A stretch of 41,110 nucleotides of DNA from NCBI GenBank assembly GCA_016186365.1, contig JACPLT010000008.1:1-41110 (forward strand), given 5' to 3'. The stretch comes from Candidatus Pacearchaeota archaeon. GTDB taxonomy: Archaea; Nanobdellota; Nanobdellia; Pacearchaeales; GW2011-AR1. Shown here in pieces: positions 7,819 through 33,789 of the stretch (position 1 is the stretch's first letter; each line of letters begins with the position of its first letter). Below the pieces are notes generated by a model. That model saw only the letters and a program-made list of their open reading frames with translations, was not told the origin of the DNA and searched no databases. The translations under genes and the position numbers were made by a program.

Positions 7819-7981
7819 TAGCTGATAAGAAATATTAATCTTTTAAATATTTATCTATAATTGCATTGATTATATTAAAGGACATTAATAATTAACCATT
7901 TTCTGTCTTTTACTATAGTATAAAAATATAGTGCAATTATAGAGATAGATAATTGTGATAGCAGTATACTAATTATTGCAA

Positions 7982-8404
7982 TTATCTATAGCTTCTCCAG
8001 ATGGATATTTTAACTATCTTAGGATTATGATTATTCGCTGAAAGACTGGAGCTTATCACCCTCTCCTTAGAATAAATCTCTCCCTCTTGATTAAAACTGC
8101 ACTCTCCATCTATCTCGCATATTAAAACATCATGATTATAACCATGAGGAATAATCTTTTCCTCCTCATTAATTCCGTCAATATATCCTTTTACTTCTTC
8201 CACATCCCCAGATAAAACCGCATCTCTCATTATCTCATTACTTGCAACTCTTTCAAGCAAATAGCTCTCAATATCAAGTATATTATCTGCTTTATTCTCT
8301 TTTTTAGCATTCTGGCTGTATACAAGCAGCAAAATCCCAATTATCAATATGATAGCAATAAATGCTTCTAACATTTTCATCCACGCTCTCTTTCCTTTTA
8401 CCAT
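7982..8404 (-). CDS. Pilin-like small membrane protein
   Basis: N-terminal hydrophobic helix WMKMLEAFIAIILIIGILLLVYS; overlaps next pilin-like gene by 7 nt. Confidence 0.65.
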   Translation of the reverse strand: MVKGKRAWMKMLEAFIAIILIIGILLLVYSQNAKKENKADNILDIESYLLERVASNEIMRDAVLSGDVEEVKGYIDGINEEEKIIPHGYNHDVLICEIDGECSFNQEGEIYSKERVISSSLSANNHNPKIVKISIWRSYR

Positions 8405-9105
8405 ATTCCAAAATTCAGCTTTCCATAGCTTATTTCCCCTGCTTCATTTATCATTTCAATAGGAATTGTTTTAGCAATAACCCTCACTCCAAATGGTTTT
8501 TTCTTATTCCCTGCAGCAATTTCCACTCCTTCTGAATTTGTAAAATTAAAATAAAAATCAAAATTCGGAATGTTCAGCTCATTTTTTAAATTAGAATAGC
8601 TTTCATCATACTCATTATCTAGAACAGCAATATTCTCATTAAATATAAATTCCTTAGTATAGTTTATCCCAAATTTATATTTATCACTGGCAAGAACCTC
8701 ACAGCTTCCCAAATCCTCTTCCTGCACTTCTAACCCCTCTCCATAATAAATATAATAAAAATTATCTCTATCATTGTCATTAATACAAAGATTCTCTCCA
8801 TTCTTATCATACTCTTTAATCTCTCCCCCCTTATTCTTAATCACAAAATTATCTCCAGAATATTCAAAACAAAAACAAGTTTCTCCGCTAGATAAATCTG
8901 TCAAATCTATTGCTCCAATACTATCAATAGTTGCAGTCATCTTTACTTTTTCTATAATCTCTCTTTCCAAAATATTAACTATCTCCTGCTTATTAGGATT
9001 ATTTTTTATTGGATTAAAAATAATAATAAGAAAGAAAACTGCTCCTATAAATAGCACAAAAGACAGCACAATTTCAATATGGCTTATTCCTTTTTTATTT
9101 TTCAT
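8398..9105 (-). CDS. Pilin-like protein with class III-type signal
   Basis: MKNKKGISHIEIVLSFVLFIGAVFFLIII; SD (AGGA) in hairpin loop upstream. Confidence 0.7.
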   Translation of the reverse strand: MKNKKGISHIEIVLSFVLFIGAVFFLIIIFNPIKNNPNKQEIVNILEREIIEKVKMTATIDSIGAIDLTDLSSGETCFCFEYSGDNFVIKNKGGEIKEYDKNGENLCINDNDRDNFYYIYYGEGLEVQEEDLGSCEVLASDKYKFGINYTKEFIFNENIAVLDNEYDESYSNLKNELNIPNFDFYFNFTNSEGVEIAAGNKKKPFGVRVIAKTIPIEMINEAGEISYGKLNFGIW

Positions 9106-9107
9106 CT

Positions 9108-9511
9108 TAAATTTCTCCTGAAATTTAATGAGGCAAAAAATTCATTAATTTTTTTCATTTCGAGTTCCCCCGGAACGAGAAAGCCAGAAAATCCCTGATT
9201 TTCTGGATCTCAAAAACTCTTGATTGTATTCTGAGTTTTTGAATACCTCGAAAATTAAATTTGTGTGCAAATTTAATTTTCTTAGTCTCAGAAATGCTAT
9301 TTGTCGCGTGCATTTCTGAGCCACCTAAATTCATATTCTGAAAGCATGAATTTTTGATATTGAAAATTTTGTTTGTTATTAAATTTTTATTTTTCATCTT
9401 AAATTTCCTATTTCCCTCTCGGGAAATTTAACGACTTCAGAAATTTTTAATTTCTGATAGTGCTCAGGAATATGAAGTATTCCTGACAGGCAGAAATTCT
9501 CAAATTTCTGC
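9108..9511 (-). repeat. Tandem array of about ten short palindromes filling the gap between the 9517 and 8398 genes
   Basis: Perfect stems include 9108-9115/9120-9127, 9184-9192/9198-9206, 9210-9219/9233-9242, 9250-9263/9268-9281 (14 bp), 9287-9297/9310-9320 (11 bp), 9327-9334/9346-9353, 9400-9408/9422-9430, 9437-9445/9449-9457, 9464-9472/9478-9486, 9490-9498/9503-9511. Confidence 0.85.
9155..9397 (-). CDS. Putative leader mini-ORF (80 aa) made of palindromes; start duplicates the MKNK start of the downstream gene
   Basis: AGGAAATTTAAG-ATGAAAAATAAAAA versus AGGAGAAATTTAAG-ATGAAAAATAAAAA for the 9105 gene. Confidence 0.35.
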   Translation of the reverse strand: MKNKNLITNKIFNIKNSCFQNMNLGGSEMHATNSISETKKIKFAHKFNFRGIQKLRIQSRVFEIQKIRDFLAFSFRGNSK

Positions 9512-9513
9512 AT
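9394..9513 (-). CDS. Putative leader mini-ORF (39 aa: MQKFENFCLSGILHIPEHYQKLKISEVVKFPEREIGNLR)
   Basis: Starts 3 nt after the stop of the 9517 gene and ends TGA overlapping the ATG at 9397 (AAGATGA). Confidence 0.35.
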   Translation of the reverse strand: MQKFENFCLSGILHIPEHYQKLKISEVVKFPEREIGNLR

Positions 9514-9516
9514 TTT

Positions 9517-10362
9517 CTAAAATAACTTTGCTACTCCATACGTGAGAAGAGAGAGTGCAGTCATTATAAACGAATGTTTTACCCCGCTTTTAATAGTTCC
9601 TTCAGCCAACTTTCCAACTGCCAGCCCTGTAAAAATTCCTTGAGTAAGCAATAACAAAAGCAGAGGCCTTGCCAGCTGTTCAGGTGTTAGGCTTCCCTGC
9701 CCAAAAGAAATAAATCCTTCTAACCCGTCCCCTCCTCCCTCTGCTCCGGTTGTTAATCCTTCAGTTACAGGCAGAATCTTGAACTGCATTATCAGCATTA
9801 TAGCTATAAATACCATGAATATCACATACCCCTGAACAACAAGAGAGGCAATTGCAGACTCTCTCTCTTTCTTTAAGTCTTCTATCTGGCTTATTGATTT
9901 TGTTACAGAAGCGAGTATTCCTTCAATCTCCCCCCCGGCTTTTTCAGCTTCGCTTATAAGCGTTACTGCCCTCCTTATAACAATGCTGTCCACATCTCTT
10001 GCAAATGTTTCTAAAGCATCTCTAAGAGGAATGCCTATTGAAATTTGATTGGCTAATTTTCTGATATGCGGAGTCAAAGTTCCATAATATTTATCTCTTA
10101 AATTTAATACTCCCTTGCTGATAGGCGTTCCAGATTTTACACTCTCAACTAAATTTCTCGTAAACTCTAAAAACATCTCATTATTCTCTTTTTCTTTTCT
10201 TCCCTCAAGAACTATATACGCAACAAACGGAAATGCCGCAATTATAAAAGCCACTGCAATCAGAAGAAAAAATACTTTTTCCTCTCTTAAAAATATAAAA
10301 TTAAAGCCCAGCAATATTGCTCCTGCAATCACTCCTATTACTTCTCCTTTTTTTATTTCCAT
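9517..10362 (-). CDS. TadC/FlaJ-like pilus platform membrane protein (first of two)
   Basis: F-domain-like core: LVESVKSGTPISKGVL...LANQISIGIPLRDALETFARDVDSIVIRRAVTLISEAEKAGG plus several TM helices. Confidence 0.8.
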   Translation of the reverse strand: MEIKKGEVIGVIAGAILLGFNFIFLREEKVFFLLIAVAFIIAAFPFVAYIVLEGRKEKENNEMFLEFTRNLVESVKSGTPISKGVLNLRDKYYGTLTPHIRKLANQISIGIPLRDALETFARDVDSIVIRRAVTLISEAEKAGGEIEGILASVTKSISQIEDLKKERESAIASLVVQGYVIFMVFIAIMLIMQFKILPVTEGLTTGAEGGGDGLEGFISFGQGSLTPEQLARPLLLLLLTQGIFTGLAVGKLAEGTIKSGVKHSFIMTALSLLTYGVAKLF

Positions 10363-10374
10363 TTTAAATATCCC

Positions 10375-10479
10375 TCAGGATTTTAAAAGCCAGAAAATTC
10401 CCAATTTTCTGGATTTCAAAAATGCGACCTGTTTCATGCATTTTTGAATGGCTTTTATATTTATTTTTTTATTTTCCAT
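10375..10479 (-). CDS. Putative leader mini-ORF (34 aa: MENKKINIKAIQKCMKQVAFLKSRKLGIFWLLKS)
   Basis: Start region duplicates that of the 10362 gene; TGA lies just upstream of GGGATATTTAAAATG. Confidence 0.3.
   Translation of the reverse strand: MENKKINIKAIQKCMKQVAFLKSRKLGIFWLLKS
10384..10457. repeat. Three-way-junction palindrome: outer stem enclosing two hairpins
   Basis: TAAAAGCC (10384-10391)/GGCTTTTA (10450-10457); CCAGAAAATT (10390-10399)/AATTTTCTGG (10403-10412); TTCAAAAATGC (10415-10425)/GCATTTTTGAA (10438-10448). Confidence 0.8.
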
Positions 10480-11861: not shown

Positions 11862-12024
11862 TGCTGATAATCTCCCCTATTTTTTTCTGAAAATTAAGAA
11901 TCTCTCCCTTAGCTTTCTTAAATTTGAGCAAATCTTTCTCTCTAAATCCCTCTTCCAACTCTATTGAAACAGCTTCAATAGATTCAATCAGCTGTTTAAG
12001 CATGCCTATCTCTTCTGGTTTCAT
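11851..12024 (-). CDS. Small helical protein preceding the TadC-like gene
   Basis: MKPEEIGMLKQLIESIEAVSIELEEGFREKD...; ATG at 12024 with AGAGG in a hairpin loop; 11-nt overlap with next gene. Confidence 0.6.
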   Translation of the reverse strand: MKPEEIGMLKQLIESIEAVSIELEEGFREKDLLKFKKAKGEILNFQKKIGEIISNGA

Positions 12025-12122
12025 CTTGAGCACACCTCTTGTGCGAGAGAGACAGAAAATTTCTTGGAAATTTTCTGTATCTTAAAATTTCTATTTAATC
12101 TAATGCAAATTTTAAGTTCCAT
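12021..12122 (-). CDS. Putative leader mini-ORF (33 aa: MELKICIRLNRNFKIQKISKKFSVSLAQEVCSR)
   Basis: AGAGGAACTCAAG-ATG duplicates AGAGGTGTGCTCAAG-ATG of the 12024 gene; TGA overlaps that ATG. Confidence 0.35.
   Translation of the reverse strand: MELKICIRLNRNFKIQKISKKFSVSLAQEVCSR
12030..12116. repeat. Palindrome array upstream of the 12024 start
   Basis: GCACA-cctct-TGTGC (12030-12044); ACAGAAAATTT/AAATTTTCTGT (12052-12062/12068-12078); CTTAAAATTT/AAATTTTAAG (12081-12090/12107-12116). Confidence 0.8.
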
Positions 12123-30949: not shown

Positions 30950-33667
30950 TTAACTCGAACTGAAAGCAATTTCCTGCTCATCAGAATTTCCAGCAAAATC
31001 TATTGCTCTTATTACCACATCATGGTTTCCAATTCTAAATGTTCTTGTACTTTTGTAATTAACACAGCTGCTGCACAAAACTCTCCATCTCGGAGAAACA
31101 TCCAGCAAATCCATATATTCTATTCTTACTCTTTCGCTTGAGCTTAAATTGAATAATACTCTTGTGCTGTAATCTGTGGTTATAGGGGAGATTACATTCA
31201 AAACAGGAGGAATTGTATCAATTCTTATTCTTGTTGTTTTTGACTTAACACTTCTTGCGTAATCGCTTACATTCATAAAAAAATCAATATACCTGTCTTC
31301 ATACCTGCTTAAATTTAAGCTAAAGTTGCAGTTAATTTTTAGTTCGCTACTTTCATTACAAGGAATATTTACTATCTCGCTTGAACTTTCATTCAAGATG
31401 TTAAGCTTAATATCTCTCAAGTTAATTTCAGAATAATCCAAGGAGAATATGCTTCCATTGAATATTTTTCCTCTTCTTGGAAAAATAGAGCTTATTCTCG
31501 GAGCTCTTGAATCCACAAAAAATGTAAATCTTTTTTCTTGAATTCCCCCGTATAAATCCGTTGCCCTAATAGTTATATTGTGCCATCCCTCGCTGAATGT
31601 TCTTCTTATTATCCTTGTATTTCCATAACTCTTGCAATCCCCGCATAGCAATGTCCATCTTGGAAATAAATCGGCATAGTCAATGAACTCTAGTTTATCT
31701 AACACAACTTCAGAAGTTATATTCATAGGAATTCTGTTATTCCCAGAAGGAGAAATATAGCTATTATTTACAGGAGAGATAACACTCAAATTAATTGAAG
31801 CATTGGTTAAAATAATCTCAAAACTCCAACTTAGCTGAGAATTTCTCCCAGAATTATCGCTCACATTAATGGTTACATTATTTATCCCAATATTCAGCCC
31901 AAGAATAGGATTATATCTTAATAAAGCATCAATATCTCCATAATTCAAAACATTATAGTCTGCAGGAGAAATTAAATTTCCATTCACTTTTAACATTGCA
32001 GTTGACTTGTTTATTCCAGAATTTTTAAAATATAATTCATCTAATACTGCGCTTATTATAGGAGTAAGATTATTGTAAACTTTGCTGTTATTAGCAGGAG
32101 ACAATAATGTAATAAACGGGCTTACTAAATCTACATAAACTGTTATATTGCTGTCTGATTCATTTCCAGGACAAGAATTTCCCCAATAGTGAAGCTCTAA
32201 TACTCCTGCTGTAATATTCCCATTATTTGGAGCTTTTTCTAATCCAAATGTTCCCGTATATGAGATAGCATAAGAGCTGTCCCACCTATACCATAAGTTA
32301 GTAGCATCCGGGTTTGTAAGTGTAAAATGCGGCTCTGTTACATACCAAGAATTTAATCCATCAGGAACAACAGGAGTCATAGTCAATATTGTTCTTCTTG
32401 TTAAGGTATAAGCATTCAATATTCCCATACCCAAATTTCCTATAGAATCATTTGCAAAAAACTGCCATGAAAAACTCTCCCCATCTTGCAAAAATGAAGA
32501 ATTAATAATATACCTGCAATTTCTTATAGAAGAACTGATATTAACACAGCTGGCAAGATAATTTATAGGAATCCCTTCCCAGTTTCCCTGCACCCAAACA
32601 TTCTGTATATTTGTATCATTTATAGTCGCATTTAATATAATATTAGAATAATTAAATGCGCATAAAGGCGAGAAATTTTCTGCATAAATTGCAGGAGCTA
32701 TTGTGTCTATTCCGAATGTTATTGGTCCTGTCGTGACTATCTGACCAAGCAAATTTTGAGAATATCCCTGATAGCTATGCAATCCTTCATTCAGATTAGT
32801 AAAATTTACTCCAAGATATTTTAATGTTTGATTGGCATATAAAGAAACTATCTCCGGTTCTGTCAGCGCCCTCTTAAATATCATAAAGTCATCTATACTC
32901 CCATTCCAATTGAATATATGCCATACTCCTATATTCAAAGCTCCTTCTGTTGCTCTCATAAAATTACTTCCAGAAACAGAAGAAACCAATTCCCCATCAT
33001 AATACAAAGAGGCATTAGTATTATTAAATCTAAAAACTGCATGATGCCAGTTAGTATCTCCATCAACAATATCTTTTATTATTCCTGCAGTATAGTCTGT
33101 TCCATTATAAATCATGCATCTTAACATCTCATTTCCCGCAGGGGTTGTATGCTCGCAATGAGTTGTATCTCCAAATCCTCCTAATCTCCATAATCCTTTT
33201 GCCTGTTCTTCATCTGGTTTATACCAGAATGAAAAAGTGTAAGAATTATTGGGATTATACCAGTTTGTCAAAGAAGTTGAAATAACATCATTAATTCCAT
33301 CAAAATCATAAGCCCCTCCTAACTTTCCATTCGCATTAAATATGGGGCAACTCACTTCAGAACAGCTTCCGTTATTTCCATAACTGCTCCAATCTTTAAT
33401 AAATGTAGAATTTTCTCCAGCTTCATTATTCATTCTCATCCACAAAATCAAACTTCTGTCAAAATCAAGGATTATCGAGTTATTTTCAGTATCCGCACTT
33501 GACAGGTTTATAAAAGCAGAATTCTGCGGATAAAAAACTCCGTTTGCAGGAGAGGGAATTTCTGCGGAAATTGCAAGAGCAGATATTCCATTAATATTTA
33601 ACAGCCCGAGGGCTAAAAACAAAGCAGTCAAAAATAAAATTTTAAAACATAATTTTCCTCTTTTCAT
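30950..33667 (-). CDS. Secreted LamG/concanavalin-like domain surface protein with Cys-paired Ig-like C-terminal repeats
   Basis: SLILWMRMNNEAGENSTFIKDWSSYGNNGSC...LGGAYDFDGINDVIS...IDDFMIFKRALTEPEIVSLYANQ is a LamG pattern. Confidence 0.85.
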   Translation of the reverse strand: MKRGKLCFKILFLTALFLALGLLNINGISALAISAEIPSPANGVFYPQNSAFINLSSADTENNSIILDFDRSLILWMRMNNEAGENSTFIKDWSSYGNNGSCSEVSCPIFNANGKLGGAYDFDGINDVISTSLTNWYNPNNSYTFSFWYKPDEEQAKGLWRLGGFGDTTHCEHTTPAGNEMLRCMIYNGTDYTAGIIKDIVDGDTNWHHAVFRFNNTNASLYYDGELVSSVSGSNFMRATEGALNIGVWHIFNWNGSIDDFMIFKRALTEPEIVSLYANQTLKYLGVNFTNLNEGLHSYQGYSQNLLGQIVTTGPITFGIDTIAPAIYAENFSPLCAFNYSNIILNATINDTNIQNVWVQGNWEGIPINYLASCVNISSSIRNCRYIINSSFLQDGESFSWQFFANDSIGNLGMGILNAYTLTRRTILTMTPVVPDGLNSWYVTEPHFTLTNPDATNLWYRWDSSYAISYTGTFGLEKAPNNGNITAGVLELHYWGNSCPGNESDSNITVYVDLVSPFITLLSPANNSKVYNNLTPIISAVLDELYFKNSGINKSTAMLKVNGNLISPADYNVLNYGDIDALLRYNPILGLNIGINNVTINVSDNSGRNSQLSWSFEIILTNASINLSVISPVNNSYISPSGNNRIPMNITSEVVLDKLEFIDYADLFPRWTLLCGDCKSYGNTRIIRRTFSEGWHNITIRATDLYGGIQEKRFTFFVDSRAPRISSIFPRRGKIFNGSIFSLDYSEINLRDIKLNILNESSSEIVNIPCNESSELKINCNFSLNLSRYEDRYIDFFMNVSDYARSVKSKTTRIRIDTIPPVLNVISPITTDYSTRVLFNLSSSERVRIEYMDLLDVSPRWRVLCSSCVNYKSTRTFRIGNHDVVIRAIDFAGNSDEQEIAFSSS

Positions 33668-33789
33668 CTTAAACTTCCATCTTCCCTTTCGGGAAGTTTA
33701 ATGAGACAGAAATTATCAAATTTCTGTATATTAAATTTTTTATCTCTTATCATAAAATTTAAGAGGTAAAAACTTTCAAGTTTTTTCAT
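33664..33789 (-). CDS. Putative leader mini-ORF (41 aa: MKKLESFYLLNFMIRDKKFNIQKFDNFCLIKLPEREDGSLR)
   Basis: Starts about 29 nt after a TTTAAATA box; TGA overlaps the ATG of the 33667 gene; C-terminus resembles the 9394-9513 mini-ORF. Confidence 0.4.
   Translation of the reverse strand: MKKLESFYLLNFMIRDKKFNIQKFDNFCLIKLPEREDGSLR
33670..33785 (-). repeat. Palindrome array upstream of the 33667 start
   Basis: TAAACTTCC/GGAAGTTTA (33670-33678/33692-33700); CTTCCC-TTTC-GGGAAG (33681-33696); ACAGAAATT/AATTTCTGT (33706-33714/33719-33727); TTAAATTTT/AAAATTTAA (33731-33739/33754-33762); AAAAACTT/AAGTTTTT (33768-33775/33778-33785). Confidence 0.85.

Follow-up and report, generated by a model that had tools for sequence, protein, structure and literature searches.

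The gap between a TadC-like and a pilin-like gene in the window (the whole 41,110-nt stretch of Candidatus Pacearchaeota contig JACPLT010000008.1 analyzed here) is very probably a stack of mobile palindromic units of Pacearchaeota, whose start-codon form supplies a ribosome binding site (RBS) and an ATG. The units are dispersed, recombine as modules, covary in their stems, are inserted precisely in one relative and not another, and are placed at start codons. Taken together, dispersal, covariation, start placement and empty and filled sites identify a family of modular, evidently mobile palindromic elements that resemble Rickettsia palindromic elements (RPEs) but carry translation-start signals.

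Architecture of the TadC-pilin gap

The end of the TadC-like gene (9517) and the start of the pilin-like gene (9105) lie where an earlier sequence-only reading had placed them, and the string of about ten inverted repeats reported between them is real. Positions 9106-9516 (minus strand, as are all features described below for the window) contain 11 perfect stems 8 bp or longer, which pair 214 nt; the expectation from 1000 dinucleotide shuffles is 0.36 stems and 6.1 paired nt, and none of them exceeded three stems. The RNA fold of the gap is -120.3 kcal/mol against a shuffled mean of -72.7 (z = -9.4). The palindromes are not unique, as had been thought; the gap modules have partial matches at 52 other places in the home genome (E<=0.001), in shuffled combinations.

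Read in the direction of transcription, the array opens with a leader ATG and a first hairpin, CAGAAATT..AATTTCTG (9491..9513), and continues with hairpin TGTCAGGAATA..TATTCCTGA and its GAGCACTAT linker (9464..9488), a module also found in locus L003 and, in diverged form, in genome G036 from another family. Start unit B (9395..9457), composed of hp1 CAGAAATTAAAAATTTCTG and hp2 TTAAATTTCC..GGAAATTTAA, ends at the ATG of an 80-aa ORF and matches covariance model R1 (below) at 65.2 bits. It is followed by hairpin module AAATTCATGC..ATGAATTT (9327..9353), common to L002, L005/L040 and L041; by the long-loop hairpin hp0, CTCAGAAATGC[ACGCGACAAATA]GCATTTCTGAG (9287..9320), among the commonest modules in the genome; and by the 14-bp perfect stem already noticed by eye, which has a 4-nt loop (9250..9281; arms 9250-9263 and 9268-9281). 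A further long-loop hairpin, TTCAAAAACTC..GAGTTTTTGA (9210..9243), lies 5' of start unit C (9156..9206), in which hp1 CCAGAAAATC..GATTTTCTGG and hp2 TCGTTCCGGGGGAACTCGA, with GGGGG in its loop, lead to an ATG at 9158; this unit is also present in L039 and L041. Finally, start unit D (9103..9156; R1 match 52 bits) consists of hp1 AAAAAATTAATGAATTTTTT, GCCTC and hp2 TTAAATTTCAGGAGAAATTTAAG with AGGAG in the loop, ends at the pilin ATG, and recurs before rpL15 (L002/L039) and in L042.

The gap had also been read as two coupled mini-ORFs. Both exist as described: TAG-AAA-ATG starts a 39-aa ORF (9513-9394), and the TGA that closes it shares letters with the ATG of the 80-aa ORF (9397-9155). The count was one short, as a third mini-ORF of 18 aa, MKKINEFFASLNFRRNLR (9158-9102), had been missed. 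The TGA of the 80-aa ORF overlaps its ATG, and its own TGA overlaps the pilin ATG. Because it links the 80-aa ORF to the pilin gene, three coupled mini-ORFs span the gap, jointed by ATGA overlaps from the TadC-like stop through to the pilin-like start. The longest ATG-started ORF reaches at least 80 codons in 1.1% of gap shuffles.

Other genes in the window are preceded by related units. A second array (10360..10446), with a long-loop hairpin (10417-10446) and an R1-matched start unit, ends at the ATG of the TadC-like gene itself; a start unit with AGAGG between its hp2 arms (12022..12078) ends at the ATG at 12024; and two tandem start units (33665..33789; R1 matches 89.3 and 47.4 bits) end at the ATG of a 905-aa gene, and a 41-codon leader ORF runs through both. 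Distinct from these units is another dispersed repeat, rich in palindromes, MITE-like and about 120-140 bp long, at window positions 7850-7990 and L062 at about 965-1100; its copies are 85% identical and share ATAGATAATTG..CAATTATCTAT and GACAGAAAATGGTTAATTATTAATGTCC blocks.

Dispersal, covariation and insertion of the units

Each core unit consists of two hairpins, hp1-CUC-hp2, and measures about 45-65 bp (most R1 units span 46-68 nt); hp2 carries a Shine-Dalgarno (SD)-like stretch and ends at AUG. Hp1 takes the form ACAGAAATT..AATTTCTGT, CCAGAAAATC..GATTTTCTGG or AAAAACT..AGTTTTT; the linker is CTC or CTTTT; and hp2 is TTAAA..TTTAA or a relative, with AGGAG, GAGGG or GGGGG in its loop or 3' arm. 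AAG or AAA stands immediately 5' of the ATG, such that the start-codon form terminates in ..AAGAUG or ..AAAAUG. A long-loop hairpin often lies 5' of the core unit, successive units in tandem arrays meet at AT(G/A/C), and some palindromes occur in both orientations.

Exchange of modules is visible at L002, an rpL30-array-rpL15 arrangement (both genes named from their sequence, without a profile) that repeats the module order of the second half of the TadC-pilin gap with the middle hairpins exchanged. Across the roughly 300-340 kb sampled, 222 gaps contain 133 hairpins whose stems reach 9 bp or more, versus 8.6 in shuffles, a density biased upward because the stretches were chosen around matches.

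Three tandem 70-bp double-hairpin copies with flank at L162:701-890 (G074 C135) suggest local amplification. Genome G153 has amplified its own version (L139, L144-L146, L151, L155, L156, L159 and L160), and many of these copies share an upstream TTAGTAAGAGCATTTTTGATAT stretch at different genes. Arrays with a GATAGTGCTCA linker in L009 and L025 (G036, from another family) reach 89% DNA identity to home-genome modules. At L057:3411-4273, an acetyltransferase-like frame is interrupted by a hairpin array with TGAGCAC linkers, and a start unit then precedes the next gene. A tRNA-Ser (GCU)-like sequence at L053:12536-13093, not called by ARAGORN, has repeated 3' halves with several hairpin modules between them and resembles either a broken tRNA or a site of integration.

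Covariance model R1, built from 7 copies, finds the unit in 34 of 200 genomes and 22 of 104 genera of the order, nearly all within the same family. Among 371 genomes sampled across the phylum (E<=0.001), it matches only seven, all of the unit's own family. In the 80 matches outside the home genome, 92.2% of cells in the structure of 19 pairs and two helices are paired, and double-changed cells number 228, versus 73 in shuffles and at most 32 when slid. Stem covariation, which had been put forward as a check, is thus found in both helices outside the home genome, where 18 of the 19 pairs change on both sides. At gathering score, Rfam matched nothing in the window beyond a tRNA, and a known RNA family was rejected as the identity of the unit. 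One exact pattern run against IMG/VR, a narrow test of viral spread, gave 0 matches, and a search of the open literature returned no report of this palindromic family.

Presence and absence between relatives, likewise suggested as a check, is found at several sites. The CCA-adding enzyme gene of G125 contains a clean 57-bp in-frame unit that its congeners G124 and G027 lack; in the empty site of G027 the flanking DNA runs on directly from AGATTT into GATAAAAAATAT, and the G125/G027 comparison reveals no target-site duplication apart from the ends of the unit itself. A YGR210/Obg-like GTPase of G153 is longer by about 20-22 aa owing to an in-frame unit that is absent from 8 aligned homologues. 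A unit lies upstream of rpL24e in G074 and G065 and is absent from the other same-genus species whose upstream region was read, some of which have the rpS28e stop directly against the rpL24e start; G062 has other hairpins before rpL24e. In G071, a unit sits within a duplicated 3' fragment of tRNA-Lys, next to an intact tRNA-Lys. In L034, L035 and L038 there is no TadC-pilin gap at all: the genes overlap or are separated by 18 nt.

Copies within genes encode related, ENxxFSVSxTSKxxKQEV-like peptides (TENKKFSVSESSKKKQE, PENQRFSVSKTSKKQK, TENKSSVSQTSKTNKQE and PGNFEFPVSSTSKEKHKE), a signature that two in-gene matches besides those of G125 and G153 share; the in-gene copies at L164 (at the N-terminus) and L169 (without a solved relative) are counted as candidate insertions. 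The loose analogy drawn earlier with RPEs is thereby given substance, as RPE-like in-frame insertion is real in genes of other Pacearchaeota.

Placement at start codons and relation to known repeats

Of 78 R1 matches outside the home genome, 35 terminate precisely at the ATG of an ORF 35 aa or longer, a share biased upward because R1 includes the terminal GATG. Five more lie just before a start, 6 lie in sense orientation inside called genes and 32 lie elsewhere between genes. SD 4-mers occur in 23 of the 35 start units versus 10 of the 43 others (P = 2e-4); the 16S 3'-end pattern by which the anti-SD would be verified was not found in the assembly. One 'inside gene' call, L163, probably reflects an ORF called too long around a start unit, the unit ending in an ATG that opens 83 codons, and the L087 match looks like a chance coding match. 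The dispersed units ending at ATGs bear out the proposal that a palindromic family inserts at gene starts. The accompanying idea, that insertion duplicates the RBS and ATG of its target, needs changing: both signals are present but are carried at the unit's 3' end, and copying from the target is not demonstrated.

A fixed, non-mobile cis-regulatory RNA at particular genes, acting for instance in translational control through SD sequestration, would also explain the strong covariation, the start-codon placement, the enrichment of SD in start units, and the occurrence of several units ahead of genes for ribosomal proteins (L15, L24e). We consider it unlikely, however, as units also stand before unrelated genes, in frame inside genes and in a tRNA remnant, 32 of 78 matches are away from start codons, and the family forms tandem and mosaic arrays and varies in presence within one genus. 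The filled site of G125 against the empty site of G124 and G027 largely refutes it as a full account. A regulatory role gained after insertion is possible.

Alternatively, the units could be REP/BIME-like palindromes spread by a Y1 (RAYT/IS200-type) transposase. They are palindromic, arrayed with short linkers between genes as REP/BIME are (PMC3733652, PMC12306157) and in some cases present in both orientations, and the home genome has Y1 transposases. Against this highly unlikely origin, the IS200-type copies have different, GC-rich ends; the Y1 transposases of the genome flank different hairpins; Y1_Tnp occurs in 15 of 34 unit-bearing and 64 of 166 other genomes (P = 0.57); and G203, G012, G154 and G165 carry units without a Y1 match. 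Moreover, no GTAG/CGTC tag was seen in the unit sequences inspected by eye, and the units end at start codons whereas REP/BIME follow stop codons (PMC3733652, PMC12306157). Y1 transposase, the sole transposase family tested, was rejected as the mover given the differing ends and the lack of association over 200 genomes, and no mobilizing enzyme was found.

RPEs are short palindromic repeats that lie in frame in unrelated protein genes and add a related peptide, according to the part of PMC10969869 consulted. The units share this behavior, being in frame and absent from homologues in the G125 CCA-adding enzyme and the G153 Obg-like GTPase. They differ in being archaeal, about 45-65 bp long (the G125 insert is 57 bp) and formed of two separate hairpins, whereas the same excerpt gives about 150 bp for RPEs and describes no start-codon form with an SD-like loop and ATG (PMC10969869). 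The likeness is one of behavior, R1 having been searched in the archaeal order and phylum only.

Like MITEs and BOX elements, the units are dispersed, non-autonomous, often upstream of genes, and modular or clustered; pneumococcal BOX elements are themselves modular. MITEs such as Correia and BOX are non-autonomous, dispersed, often upstream of genes and able to alter expression, as outlined in the excerpt of PMC10969869. Unlike MITEs, the units have palindromes that form internal hairpins and no terminal inverted repeats framing the whole; they show no target-site duplication, and no parent transposon was found here (Y1_Tnp tested, IS200-type ends different).

Mitochondrial double-hairpin and other repetitive hairpin-forming elements repeatedly invade intergenic gaps and differ between close taxa (PMC2800124). 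Similarly, two adjacent hairpins here make up one mobile unit in which both helices covary and presence/absence is seen. Those elements are organellar, whereas the structural likeness here is drawn from archaeal sequences. To our knowledge, they neither carry translation-start signals nor insert in frame.

Overall, we file the family under none of RPE, MITE or REP because it fails on size, target-site duplication and RAYT association, respectively. What we could not match to a described family is the start-codon form, which has an SD loop of its own.

Leader reading frames and operon translation

Eighteen units have an ATG at their 5' boundary. Reading from this ATG meets no stop within the unit in 15 of them, whereas the +2 frame is open in 4 of 18. 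The nominal P = 2.7e-7 for this test is inflated because the +1 frame closes automatically where an A follows the ATG; 15/18 versus 4/18 is the fairer contrast, among units related by descent. Of 43 array gaps, 23 contain a mini-ORF, 8 codons or longer, whose end falls at -1 or +4 relative to the next start. Here the caution voiced earlier about the overlapping TGA is well placed, as the unit end TTTAAGATGA itself contains a stop at both -1 and +4.

The longest stop-free run covers 0.81 of array gaps, 0.76 on the opposite strand (P = 0.12) and 0.79 of hairpin-free gaps. Selection for openness lacks support because these runs do not exceed those of the opposite strand or hairpin-free gaps, and openness was rejected as a sign of selection. 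ATG-started ORFs cover 0.65 of the sense strand versus 0.18 of the other strand (P = 1e-6); as stop-free runs match controls, this excess reflects the built-in ATGs. The sequence-only reading had allowed that simulated AT-rich gaps might prove equally palindromic and equally open. Palindrome density far above shuffles, along with presence/absence and covariation, counters that possibility, and openness, which equals its controls, does not. Its claim that insertion preserves coupling is similarly divided: the open leader frames are suggestive and the stop-free runs are not.

It is very unlikely that the mini-ORFs are genuine small protein genes with incidental palindromes, as the rarity of the 80-aa length in shuffles and the open leader frames might suggest, given that the 80-aa ORF has no Pfam match, the same sequences occur elsewhere without a downstream start, stop-free runs equal controls, and the conservation signal lies in hairpins, not peptides.

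Coupled leader mini-ORFs recur across genera, and coupled re-initiation at the units is plausible. Leader-assisted re-initiation is described in bacteria, where a short leader ORF adjoining the start codon is proposed to raise translation (PMC4833913); the leader here differs in being made by an inserted repeat and is known from sequence only.

We propose that the gap is a tandem, partly mosaic stack of dispersed, non-autonomous palindromic mobile elements. With an SD-like purine run in the loop or 3' arm of hp2 and an AUG at the unit end, a unit landing at the start of an operon gene would supply its own RBS and start codon. The upstream AUG may then open a short leader ORF, and because that ORF ends at or overlaps the new start, the gene would be expressed by coupled re-initiation through hp2. 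Repeated landings at one start would build arrays such as the TadC-pilin gap, and copies elsewhere would survive where harmless, namely between genes, in a tRNA remnant and in frame within genes.

More tentatively, and with somewhat less than even confidence, we suggest that the element prefers, or is best tolerated at, the start codon; the old ATG would open the leader ORF while the hairpin-borne RBS and new ATG rewire operon translation, including that of ribosomal-protein operons, across an archaeal family, and copies inside genes may over time have become peptide insertions that keep the frame and contain no stop.

The usual view of small palindromic repeats is that they are inert debris between genes or, as in Rickettsia, inserts in proteins. 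One family here plays both parts and would in addition take control of translation initiation in the operons of DPANN archaea with tiny genomes. New leader peptides and coupled mini-ORFs may arise from it naturally, it may help in studying the tolerance of compact operons to insertion, and the R1 covariance model allows the family to be mapped.
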